Translations under genes and position numbers: made by a program
Assembly: GCF_029889905.1 (NCBI RefSeq)
Contig: NZ_JARANZ010000011.1
Coordinates: forward strand, 1-64,000
Source of the DNA: Chromohalobacter sp. 11-W
GTDB lineage: Bacteria > Pseudomonadota > Gammaproteobacteria > Pseudomonadales > Halomonadaceae
DNA length: 64,000 nucleotides
Direction: 5' to 3'
Notes under the pieces: generated by a model
Databases searched by the model: none
What the model saw: only the letters and a program-made list of their open reading frames with translations
Told to the model about the DNA's origin: nothing
In this document: piece after piece, positions 22,098 to 50,989 of the stretch
How the letters are laid out: the number at the start of each line of letters is the position of its first letter
How positions within the stretch are numbered: position 1 is the stretch's first letter

Positions 22098-22682
22098 ATG
22101 ACGCTCGATACCACCGCGATCAACCAGCAAATGACGCATTTCAACGACCATGAGGCGATCTGGCTGTTCGGCTATGGTTCTCTGATCTGGAAGGCGGATT
22201 TCTCGTTTCTGGAGAGTCGGCCGGCGCATATCATCGGCTGGGAAAGACGTTTCTGGCAGGGCTCGCACGACCACCGCGGCACGCCACAGGCGCCGGGCCG
22301 GGTCGCCACACTGACCGAACGCCCCGGCGCGGTCTGCCACGGCATGGCCTACCGTATCACCCAGGACGTGCTCGGCCCGCTGGATGTGCGCGAGAAGAAT
22401 GGCTATCTGCGCGTAGTAACGCCGCTGCACTTCGATGACGTTGAGAGAGAAGAAAACGTCGAGGGCCTGGTCTACCTCGCCAGCGAGGACAACGCCGCCT
22501 TCCTGGGGCCGGCGCCGGACACCGCCATCGCCCGGCAGATCGCCGAATCTCACGGCCCCAGCGGCCCTAATCGCGATTATCTGCTCAACCTGGCCCAAGC
22601 GCTGCGCGAGATGGGGCATGACGACCCGCACATCTTCGCCCTGGAGCGTGAATTGCTCGCGTTACCTCCTCAGCCGGCGTGA
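22098..22682 (+). CDS. ChaC-like gamma-glutamylcyclotransferase
   Basis: A 194-residue cytosolic enzyme of the ChaC family, which cleaves glutathione to 5-oxoproline and Cys-Gly. The substrate-binding loop FGYGSLIWKADF and GWERRFWQGSHDHRGTP are diagnostic; the catalytic Glu lies in the block around EREENVEGLVY, as in family members. The stop codon is part of a 57-bp sequence repeated at 27579, where the arfB gene ends: chaC and arfB were probably convergent neighbours before the TRAP block came between them. Confidence 0.88.
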   Translation: MTLDTTAINQQMTHFNDHEAIWLFGYGSLIWKADFSFLESRPAHIIGWERRFWQGSHDHRGTPQAPGRVATLTERPGAVCHGMAYRITQDVLGPLDVREKNGYLRVVTPLHFDDVEREENVEGLVYLASEDNAAFLGPAPDTAIARQIAESHGPSGPNRDYLLNLAQALREMGHDDPHIFALERELLALPPQPA

Positions 22683-22728
22683 GACGACACACCGGCCGAC
22701 AGCAGGGTTACGGATTTAACTTGCCACG
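22672..22728. repeat. Left flanking repeat of the TRAP block
   Basis: 57 bp aligning without gaps to 27579-27635 (44 of 57 bases identical). It begins in the last codons of chaC and ends in sequence that, on the minus strand, still reads RGKLNP-stop, a variant of the ArfB C-terminus RGKVET-stop. It therefore holds a relic arfB end. Confidence 0.85.
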
Positions 22729-22763
22729 TAATACGCAAACCCCCATTTAGATAGGTTTTATGG

Positions 22764-48613: not shown

Positions 48614-50767
48614 TTACGCGATATCGAAGCGATCGGCGTTCATCACTTTCGTCCAGGCAGCGACGAAGTCTTTGACGAACTTCTCGTCATTATCGTCCTG
48701 GGCATAGACCTCCGCGTAAGAACGCAGCAGCGAGTTGGAACCAAAGACCAAGTCAACGCGTGACGCTGTCCATTTGACGGTGTCTGTTTCCCGGTCGCGA
48801 ATCGTGTAAAGGCCGTTACCCGCTGGCTTCCAGGCGTTGCCCATATCGGTCAGGTTGACGAAGAAGTCATGGGTCAACTGGCCTTCACGGTCGGTGAAGA
48901 CACCGTGCTGGGTACCGCCATGGTTGGTGCCCAGTACCCGCATACCGCCGAGTAGCACGGTCATTTCCGGCCCGGTCAATCCCATCAGTTGGGCACGGTC
49001 GAGCAGCATTACTTCCGGCTTGACCACGTAATCTTTCTTCTGCCAGTTGCGGAAGCCATCGGCCAGCGGCTCCAGCGGCTCAAAGGATTCGCCGTCGGTC
49101 ATTTCGGCAGAGGCATCGCCACGGCCTTTCAAGAACGGTACGCGCACATCATAGCCCGCCGCCTTCGCCGCTTTTTCGATACCCACGCTACCCGCCAACA
49201 CGATCACATCGGCAATGCTGGCACCGGTTTCGGCGGAGATCCGCTCATACACGTCGAGGACCTTGGCGAGACGCTCAGGCTCGTTTCCTTGCCACTCTTT
49301 CTGAGGCGCCAGGCGAATGCGAGCACCGTTAGCACCGCCGCGCATGTCGGAACCGCGATACGTGCGAGCGCTGTCCCATGCCGTACTGACCATCTCGCTA
49401 ATGCTCAGGCCGCTTTCCGCGATTTTCTGCTTAACGACTTCTTCACTGTAGTCGGTGTTACCAGCCGGGATCGGATCCTGCCAGATCAAGTCTTCAGAGG
49501 GCACTTCCGGGCCTATATAGCGCGACTTCGGGCCCAGGTCACGGTGGGTCAGTTTGAACCATGCCTTGGCGAAGGTTTGCTTGAAGTATTCCGGGTCGGT
49601 CATGAACTTTTCGCAGAGCGCCCGGTACGTCGGGTCCATCTTCATCGCCATATCCGCATCGGTCATGATGGGGTTGTGGCGAATAGAGGGGTCGCTGGCA
49701 TCGACCGGCTTGTCTTCTTCCTTGATGTTCACCGGCTCCCACTGGTTAGCGCCGGCGGGGCTCTTCCTAAGTTCCCACTCGTAGCCGAAGAGCAGATCGA
49801 AGTAGCCCATGTCGAACTGAGTGGGATTCGTGGTCCAGGCGCCTTCGATGCCCGATGTGATGGCGTTACTCGCCTTGCCGCCCATGCTGGAGTTGCCCCA
49901 GCCAAAGCCCTGATTCTCAACATCGGACGCTTCGGGTTCGGCATCTAGCGCAGACGCATCACCATTACCGTGACATTTACCCACGGTATGACCACCGGCC
50001 GTCAGTGCGGCGGTTTCTTCGTCGTTCATCGCCATGCGGGCGAAGGTTTCACGTACCTGCTGAGCGGTTTTCAGCGGATCGGGCTGCCCGTTAACGCCTT
50101 CGGGGTTAACGTAGATAAGCCCCATCTGGACGGCTGCCAGCGGGTTTTCCATGGTCTCGGGGCTATCGACATCTTCATAACGCTCGTCGGAAGGCGCCAA
50201 CCACTCTTTCTCATCACCCCAGTAAATGTCTTTTTCCGGCTCCCAGATATCTTTGCGGCCGAAAGAAAACCCGTAGGACGGTAGCCCCATGGATTCGTAG
50301 GCGACGGTACCGGCCAGAATCATCAGGTCAGCCCAGCTGATCTTGTTGCCGTATTTTTTCTTGATCGGCCACAGCAGACGACGCGCCTTATCGAGGCTGG
50401 CGTTGTCCGGCCAGGAGTTGAGCGGGGCGAAACGCTGGCTACCGGTACCGCCGCCACCACGGCCATCGGCAAGACGGTAGGTACCCGCAGAGTGCCATGC
50501 CATGCGGATCATCAGGCCACCGTAGTGGCCCCAGTCGGCCGGCCACCAGGCTTGGCTGTCGGTCATCAGCGCGTGAACGTCTTGCTTGAGCGCGTCAAAA
50601 TCGAGCTTTCTGACTTCCTCACGGTAATCGAAGTCAGGATCCATCGGGTTAGTCTTGCGATCATGCTGGTGCAAGATATCCAGGTTAATACCTTCCGGCC
50701 ACCAGTCTTTATTGGAGGTGCCAGTGGAAGTATGACCACCGTGCATTACTGGACATTTTCCGCTCAT
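48614..50767 (-). CDS. katG: Catalase-peroxidase KatG
   Basis: A 717-residue bifunctional haem catalase-peroxidase, two-domain as usual. The distal site is visible in [22 protein letters not shown] (Arg, Trp, His), the proximal His region in [15 protein letters not shown], and the Tyr of the Met-Tyr-Trp adduct in [17 protein letters not shown]. The C-terminal domain begins about residue 430 ([23 protein letters not shown]). It removes H2O2 in the cytosol. AAGGGGAAAGAAAT precedes the start. A perfect 20-bp repeat lies on each side, so the gene looks like an insert. No oxyR gene is adjacent, and the promoter region shows no correctly spaced OxyR site. Confidence 0.96.
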
Positions 50768-50969
50768 ATTTCTTTCCCCTTCTTGCTCTTGGCCTTGGCG
50801 ATACCCAAGGAACTTATGGCCGGCACCTTAGTTATCTTGCTCACCTTTGCGTAACGACCATGCGTTATTGACGTAGCCTTTTTAAAGCATCCTTTTAATA
50901 GTCAAAATTTGTATTTTGCTACTCATGCAATAGAAATAAATCATCACACGATAGACGGAGCGTAATGGG

Positions 50970-50989
50970 CATACCACTGTCACGAGGTC
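50970..50989. repeat. Right 20-bp direct repeat flanking katG
   Basis: Identical to 48370-48389. It lies about 95 bp upstream of the aminotransferase start, in its leader region. Confidence 0.9.

Follow-up and report, generated by a model that had tools for sequence, protein, structure and literature searches.

The window, a stretch of 64,000 nucleotides from Chromohalobacter sp. 11-W (on a contig of 127,732 bases), carries between chaC and a class-III aminotransferase gene a series of accessory metabolic modules that lie between repeated pieces of their neighbours. A sequence-only reading of this DNA had described four accessory blocks flanked by direct repeats in the same orientation, and an independent repeat search recovered all four pairs, each with its copies in the same orientation. 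The pairs belonging to a short-chain dehydrogenase/reductase (SDR) gene, to tspO and to chaC/arfB are the four longest direct-repeat families among 20 of the 21 families found at window positions 20000-53000, the next measuring 37 nt. The features are collected in Table 1.

In three of the four cases the same reading had taken the repeat to be the 3' end of the adjacent backbone gene. This is so for tspO, whose pair (32571-32628 / 36404-36461) extends over 58 nt at 84% identity, and for the SDR gene, whose 3' part contributes one pair of 98 nt (38317-38414 / 46718-46815; 88% identity) and a second of 95 nt (38441-38535 / 46980-47074; 78% identity); the chaC/arfB repeat (60 nt, 77% identity) instead comprises the whole convergent junction, with the ends of both genes and the spacer. 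The two copies beside katG agree at 22 of 23 positions, including a perfect 20 bp, and the katG 25-mer, allowing at most three mismatches, occurs at just these two sites in the whole 11-W genome.

Two gene assignments changed: the gene at 34698-35306, previously labelled PNPOx, matched no family of Pfam or NCBIfam at E 0.001, and the aminotransferase gene is now placed on the plus strand. The window genes for the SDR, TauE and the aminotransferase resemble isfD, isfE and toa, described in C. salexigens for the conversion of taurine to isethionate (PMC6616044, in excerpt), and the names used here are taken from that resemblance.

Table 1. Positions in the window of the modules, the anchor genes and the repeated anchor sequences.
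Feature	Position	Strand	Basis and remarks
chaC, left anchor gene	22098..22682	+	Pfam PF04752; 3' end inside repeat
Left copy of chaC-end/spacer/arfB-end junction; arfB end a relic here	22672..22731		Repeat search, sequence comparison
Insert 1, TRAP module: fused DctQM, DctP, SDR, GntR	22732..27578		Pfam; missing from G004, G005, G007, G008
Right junction copy: 11-bp chaC relic and intact arfB end	27579..27638		Repeat search, sequence comparison
arfB, right anchor gene	27615..28061	-	NCBIfam PRK09256 ArfB, over cut-off
tspO, intact anchor gene	32130..32627	+	Pfam PF03073
Insert 2, block A: AraC, SDR, gene 34698-35306 (no family match), LysR	32629..36389		Missing from G002, G006
tspO 3'-end relic joined to block B	36390..36461	+	37-base stretch over stop
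Flavin (FMN) reductase, block B, itself accessory	36651..37199	-	Pfam PF03358; no match in G004, G005, G007, G008
SDR (isfD-like) 3'-half relic, from about codon 117 to end, internal deletions	38281..38609	-	Alignments, tree
Insert 3a: LysE-type exporter and GGDEF gene	38610..41010		Pfam; without Tct module in G008
Stretch resembling dienelactone-hydrolase 3' end, left edge of Tct module; putative relic	41011..41152		By eye against G005
Insert 3b: TctA, TctC-like (by eye, no family match), PrpF/4-oxalomesaconate tautomerase, LysR	41153..46690		Pfam/NCBIfam families
SDR (isfD-like), intact anchor gene	46721..47530	-	Pfam adh_short; best NCBIfam YdfG, below cut-off
katG left repeat, TauE side	48370..48392		Repeat search
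Insert 4: katG	48614..50767	-	Pfam peroxidase; absent in 20/20 loci outside genus
katG right repeat, aminotransferase side	50970..50992		Outgroup spacers; in its ancestral setting, CTGTCACGA followed 20 bases later by TTCTGGCTCTA
Class-III aminotransferase, right neighbour	51084..52400	+	Pfam PF00202

Empty sites and anchor copies among relatives

We compared the window with syntenic stretches of eight relatives: G001, G002, C. canadensis 85B (G003), C. israelensis (G004), C. marismortui (G005), C. moromii (G006), C. nigrandesensis (G007) and C. sarecensis (G008). Together with 11-W and the fragmented genome G009, probably Chromohalobacter sp. 296-RDG, these form a genus set of ten. Where alignments adjoining an insert overlap on a genome with an empty site, the flanking sequence is duplicated at the insert; among 200 simulated clean insertions (G006 against G002), none had flanks overlapping by 25 bp or more, one reached at least 15 bp, and the largest overlap was 17 bp.

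The adjacencies predicted from the sequence alone, chaC with arfB, tspO with the flavin reductase gene, and TauE with the aminotransferase gene, all exist as empty sites. chaC adjoins arfB with no TRAP block between them in four of the seven relatives whose contig reaches the site, with flank overlaps of 57 bp in G007 and 59 bp in G008, indicating that a junction present once in those genomes stands twice in the window. The TRAP module is present in G003 and G006, and in G009 on contig C316; G002 keeps only its SDR gene, and the G001 contig stops short of the site. Outgroup gene order proved uninformative as a test of the direction of this insertion: chaC and arfB were each found in 18 of 20 outgroup genomes, with their best matches never near each other.

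At tspO, the gene directly joins the flavin reductase gene in two of the eight relatives, G002 and G006, with overlaps of 71 and 70 bp. The flavin reductase gene, previously counted as backbone, is itself accessory, being absent from half of the eight relatives, and across the genus the interval after tspO holds block A, block B, both or neither: 11-W, G001 and G003 carry block A, a tspO relic and block B (G001 and G003 without most of AraC-SDR), G008 has block A with neither block B nor relic, G007 has part of block A, and G004 and G005 have neither block. The relic departs from the resident gene by six synonymous and three non-synonymous codon changes. Thirty-seven bases over the tspO stop are identical in the relics of 11-W, G001 and G003 and in the functional tspO ends of G002 and G006, and are absent from all other joined stretches tested. 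The relic ends TAAGG, as in the type linked to flavin reductase, while the resident tspO beside block A in 11-W, G001 and G003 ends TGA, like that of G004, G005, G007 and G008; the TGA shared by the residents argues against the duplication of one tspO allele. Relic and resident thus differ in ancestry, and from their sequences the pair reads as a join of two tspO-linked alleles, with a GCCT common to both parents near the joint between block A and the relic. In the G009 assembly, contigs L140 and L137 end near repeats or junctions (the match of L140 to the window stops at 36383), which is where anchor copies would be expected to interrupt an assembly.

The third segment had been read as a single LysE-GGDEF-Tct-LysR insert. 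It comprises at least two independent insertions: the relic, LysE and GGDEF genes occur without the Tct module in G008, and the Tct module occurs without SDR relic, LysE or GGDEF in G003. The order is also different in G001, where the Tct module lies on the opposite side of relic-LysE-GGDEF, and in G005, where it runs Tct-relic-GGDEF. The SDR relic begins near codon 117 beside LysE in 11-W, G001, G002 and G008, with a 136-column gap common to 11-W and G001 and a gap of 354-355 columns common to G002 and G008, whereas in G007 an independent relic of codons 207-269 lies beside an arsenic-type module (ArsR, ArsP and a methyltransferase). One anchor, the SDR 3' end, has thus been reused by several inserts. 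In all four genomes in which the Tct module was seen, it stops at the 3' end of an SDR, which is a relic in G001 and G005 and the intact gene in 11-W and G003. G006 is uninterrupted from tspO to the SDR gene and gives an overlap of 133 bp at the latter, so that empty sites exist for all four repeat pairs.

The SDR relic of the window, with internal gaps of 27 and 136 columns and differences at 12/95, 12/97 and 32/98 sites of codon positions 1, 2 and 3, is a decaying pseudogene. These counts and those for tspO bear out only in part the view that the repeats diverge mainly at silent positions. In a tree of 282 columns the relics of 11-W and G001 group together at 100% bootstrap and apart from the SDR gene of 11-W itself, and they are about 80-85% identical to genus SDRs compared with 76-80% to outgroup SDRs. 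The two outcomes that could have overturned the import model, a uniform gene order among relatives and relics that are tandem paralogues of the resident copy, are therefore not what was found: order varies, and neither the tspO nor the SDR relic matches its resident best. Support for import from related strains is confined to the tspO A/B junction and the SDR relic and does not extend to the donors of the TRAP, katG and Tct modules.

The katG insertion is older. Related strains lacking katG had been predicted, and within the genus there are none: katG is present in all ten genomes and stands beside TauE in all eight relatives with that TauE gene (G001-G003 and G005-G009), G004 having katG and no TauE. 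Outside the genus, all 20 fetched loci read SDR-TauE-aminotransferase-MocR with no katG between, the spacer measuring 231-468 bp. This distribution indicates that katG entered in or before the Chromohalobacter ancestor, and an entry before the genus diversified explains why the empty site is seen only outside it. CTGTCACGA, present twice in the window, occurs exactly once in 12 of the 20 outgroup spacers, TTCTGGCTCTA occurs once in 17, and in 11 the former lies 20 bases before the latter, exactly as at the right copy in the window. Both repeat copies are recognisable in eight aligned genomes, 11-W included, the left one having diverged in several. The katG protein of the window is 95-97% identical to those of G005-G008 and 83-84% to those of G001-G004, a split that suggests, from sequence comparison, a separate allele exchange within the old insertion.

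Insertions elsewhere in the genus

The overlap test was extended to the 127.7-kb window contig and to stretches of 236 kb from G006, 240 kb from G002 and 240 kb from G003, with collinear alignments spanning 85-99 kb in five of the pairs and 197 kb in the pair G006-G003. Counting insertions of at least 500 bp and leaving out replacements with gaps of at least 100 bp on the second genome, the survey yielded 41 classes, some of which may nest. Two are the size of insertion sequences (IS), with overlaps of 2-4 bp. Among the 39 others, overlaps reach at least 25 bp in nine classes, or eight events, the 11-W and G003 rows for block A being one event; no simulated clean insertion did so.

The freshest repeat lies at the end of a PQQ-dehydrogenase gene in C. 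canadensis (182/190 columns). The same genome has a 9.65-kb block with a repeat of 82/92 columns, a repeat of 60/74 where a gene judged by eye to be RsmE-like ends, and another of 42/45 columns. The source of the fresh 1-kb insert in C. canadensis, which a repeat of 188 bp surrounds, was not found elsewhere in the ten genomes. Outside the genus, synteny was examined for the PQQ-dehydrogenase: in the 72 of 80 loci not labelled Chromohalobacter, matches with an identity of at least 45% were confined to this gene. C. nigrandesensis gives a 134-bp overlap at the gene of window 19906-20964, and at its locus L043:8281-10703 the 3' end of that gene is present twice, with genes for a homocysteine S-methyltransferase and an amino-acid permease in the interval. 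Cargo in the survey inserts and in other inserts of the relatives includes a hut-like operon, ArsR/ArsP, mmuP-mmuM-like genes and genes of sugar-acid type, ten of the proteins having been scanned with Pfam and the others identified by eye from their translations.

Route of insertion and alternative explanations

We propose, with a probability of roughly 0.75, that the metabolic modules were acquired, each being added beside a resident gene by recombination that used neighbouring sequence as a homology anchor. The anchor would be the 3' end of the resident gene or the spacer beside it, leaving intact sequence on one side of the module and a partial copy on the other. Donor DNA bearing anchor and cargo would circularise by an illegitimate join, and the circle would enter by one RecA-dependent crossover in the anchor, yielding a duplication with no loss; a module so flanked could later drop out or change place once more when its anchor copies recombine in the ordinary way. 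The circular step, taken alone, falls a little short of an even chance. No backbone gene was lost at the chaC/arfB, tspO, SDR or katG sites, a small loss being confined to the GGDEF/Tct joint, and the simplest route to events that add DNA without such loss, and the one preferred here, would be a single crossover of a circular molecule with anchor and cargo. The Tct module of the window looks instead like a product of classical one-sided joining with a small deletion: its left edge, which resembles by eye the end of a dienelactone-hydrolase-like gene found to the left of Tct in G005, abuts a GGDEF gene whose end is shortened. There is experimental precedent in E. coli clones intended to show homology-facilitated illegitimate recombination (HFIR): as excerpted, Amarir-Bouhram et al. 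(PMC3240628) found partial anchor duplication in 56 of 60 clones, with duplications of 109-950 bp in 14 sequenced clones that they explained by single crossover of circles.

Several points weigh against this proposal. The circular intermediate and transformation are postulated, and ComEC, present in 10 of 10 genus genomes and only permissive for DNA uptake, also occurs in genomes not known for competence, the E. coli control having scored positive. Loss by recombination between repeats would leave equally clean empty sites, and loss of block A in this way in G002 and G006 would give the tspO relic its identity without two parental alleles; the survey classes may likewise be gains or losses, the two backbone trees conflict, and the blocks are patchy on both. 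The donor at chaC/arfB would itself need a truncated anchor beside its cargo, and the placement of the SDR relics inside the genus has a support of only 37. For katG, a repeat of 23 bp gives RecA little length to act on, each copy stands upstream of a gene, so that the two could be a shared regulatory site, and the exact CTGTCACGA is missing from 8 of the 20 outgroup spacers. Two of the eight survey events, a hut-like operon in G002 (27/32) and an alpha/beta hydrolase in G003 (59/79), have repeats overlapping terminator-like hairpins, which might explain their similarity. Finally, 30 of the 39 non-IS classes have overlaps below 25 bp (15-22 bp in five), which indicates that the anchored route is not the sole one.

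The alternative with the better, though still minor, prospects concerns the route and leaves anchored acquisition as it is. In linear HFIR, one end of the incoming molecule would recombine in the anchor and the other would be joined by microhomology within the recipient's anchor on the sister chromosome. The distinct tspO allele of the relic and the GCCT shared by both parents near its joint agree with this, and excerpts of PMC3240628 describe HFIR joints as mostly having 3-10 bp of microhomology. The GGDEF/Tct joint of the window, too, has one homologous and one non-homologous side and a small loss. HFIR products, however, generally carry a deletion of a size similar to the insert, about 1 kb (PMC3240628, in excerpt), a loss for which the repeat-flanked cases offer no parallel. 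The sequence-only reading had the donor joined at one end by homology; its account of a second, partial anchor copy stands, and duplication without deletion would be reached more simply if a circle crossed over once, or by way of the sister chromatid, than if a linear molecule were joined at one end. Non-homologous end joining was rejected as a genus-wide cause, Ku being found in one of ten genomes (C. canadensis, two matches, G003:C5:7516-8833) and not in 11-W or the other genus genomes searched.

Improbable in our view is an insertion resembling transposition in which a single target allele was duplicated over a long stretch. The nearly identical fresh copies in C. canadensis agree with it, and a same-species donor fits them equally; the tspO copies, by contrast, are two known alleles, and the scanned cargo contains no transposase.

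A restored gene 3' end with a relic alongside is the usual look of integrase sites, and the repeats could in principle be attL and attR of elements that have lost a tyrosine integrase. This is a very unlikely account of the modules. Pfam scans of the 27 larger distinct window open reading frames and of ten cargo proteins of relatives detected no recombinase, integrase or relaxase, and inspection by eye of translations from other inserts gave no integrase or relaxase, the only transposases seen there being IS5-like ones in G002 and G004. tRNA genes are missing from the window and from five surveyed inserts, so that the earlier statement that the region has no transposase, integrase or tRNA site is upheld within these searches. 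Moreover, the SDR anchor was used at two positions, codons 117 and 207, and the repeats vary in length between 23 bp and about 190 bp. Phage and plasmid origins were also set aside: window 22000-46000 had no megablast match in the phage collection, and of 114 plasmid records matching window 31000-55000 none covers 80%, the best 20 of the 114 matching the katG part only.

That the anchors were duplicated in tandem long ago and the blocks are ancestral, with cargo lost in some lineages, is scarcely credible: the deletion remnants in G002 (TRAP) and in G001 and G003 (AraC-SDR) lend it something, yet the relics are truncated gene ends whose neighbouring cargo changes from genome to genome, the SDR relic groups apart from the resident of its own genome, katG is absent from every outgroup locus fetched, and none of those loci has the same relics and cargo.

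Going beyond anchored acquisition itself, one may imagine that a self-perpetuating, recombinase-free cassette cycle supplies Chromohalobacter modules in good part, with modules leaving as circles via their anchor copies, re-entering any genome with that gene and stacking there, so that gene 3' ends would become universal attachment sites at which RecA alone is needed. We regard this extension as speculative and doubtful.

Precedents and minor observations

The closest known event is insertion with long target duplication (Nobusato et al. 2000, as cited in excerpts of PMC1643837, PMC3154945 and PMC3031569), in which long direct target repeats flank a block, a relative has the empty allele and no transposase is needed. 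As there, the repeats are single in the empty alleles, both at the five sites with overlaps of 57 to 133 bp and, for the katG motif, in the 12 outgroup spacers. The Helicobacter pylori cases are, in those excerpts, often linked to restriction-modification genes, whereas the cargo here is transport, catabolism, regulation and a peroxidase, and the window differs further in that its relics are decayed, the tspO copies point to two alleles and one anchor gene was used repeatedly. HFIR may share the single homologous anchor and the non-homologous joint, as well as the serial insertions that shift older gene ends downstream, and differs in that its standard products usually, if not invariably, delete recipient DNA (PMC3240628, in excerpt); excerpts of PMC5361080 and PMC9711863 propose it for genome loci, the former with displaced gene ends at Vibrio cholerae immunity arrays. 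Minimal mobile elements, as defined in an excerpt of PMC3082526, are whole-gene cassettes that vary at a place between conserved genes and move by homologous recombination, and the alternative cassettes after tspO answer to this description; here, though, cassettes are also stacked, not just exchanged, and come with partial copies of flanking genes. The site-specific recombinase and fixed attachment core of an integrase-borne genomic island have no counterpart among the scanned frames or in the use made of the SDR gene.

In the window, events of a known kind can be seen unusually clearly, with metabolic cargo and repeated use of an anchor, and the pattern extends beyond the window; among the matches listed, the literature held no report of anchored insertions for Chromohalobacter. 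In our view, much bacterial gene gain without visible mobile elements is ascribed to unspecified recombination. The scars described here record, for each insertion, the site of homology, the positions of the alleles and the order of events, and the overlap signature separates anchored insertions from the two IS-sized ones and from unanchored changes. Being simple and applicable genome-wide, it should make the share of gene gain by the anchored route measurable in other genera.

Two further stretches that differ among the genomes are bounded by short repeats. AT-rich palindromic repeats at window 8596-8626 and 12351-12380 (26/31 columns) flank a 3.7-kb stretch missing from G002 and G004. Two copies of ATGTTTCACGTGAAACA, presumably a parS site from its appearance, flank a 1.27-kb stretch absent in G006, one at L192:13486-13502 and the other about 1.4 kb away; in the joined coordinates of G003 the copies lie at 166499-166515 and 167906-167922.

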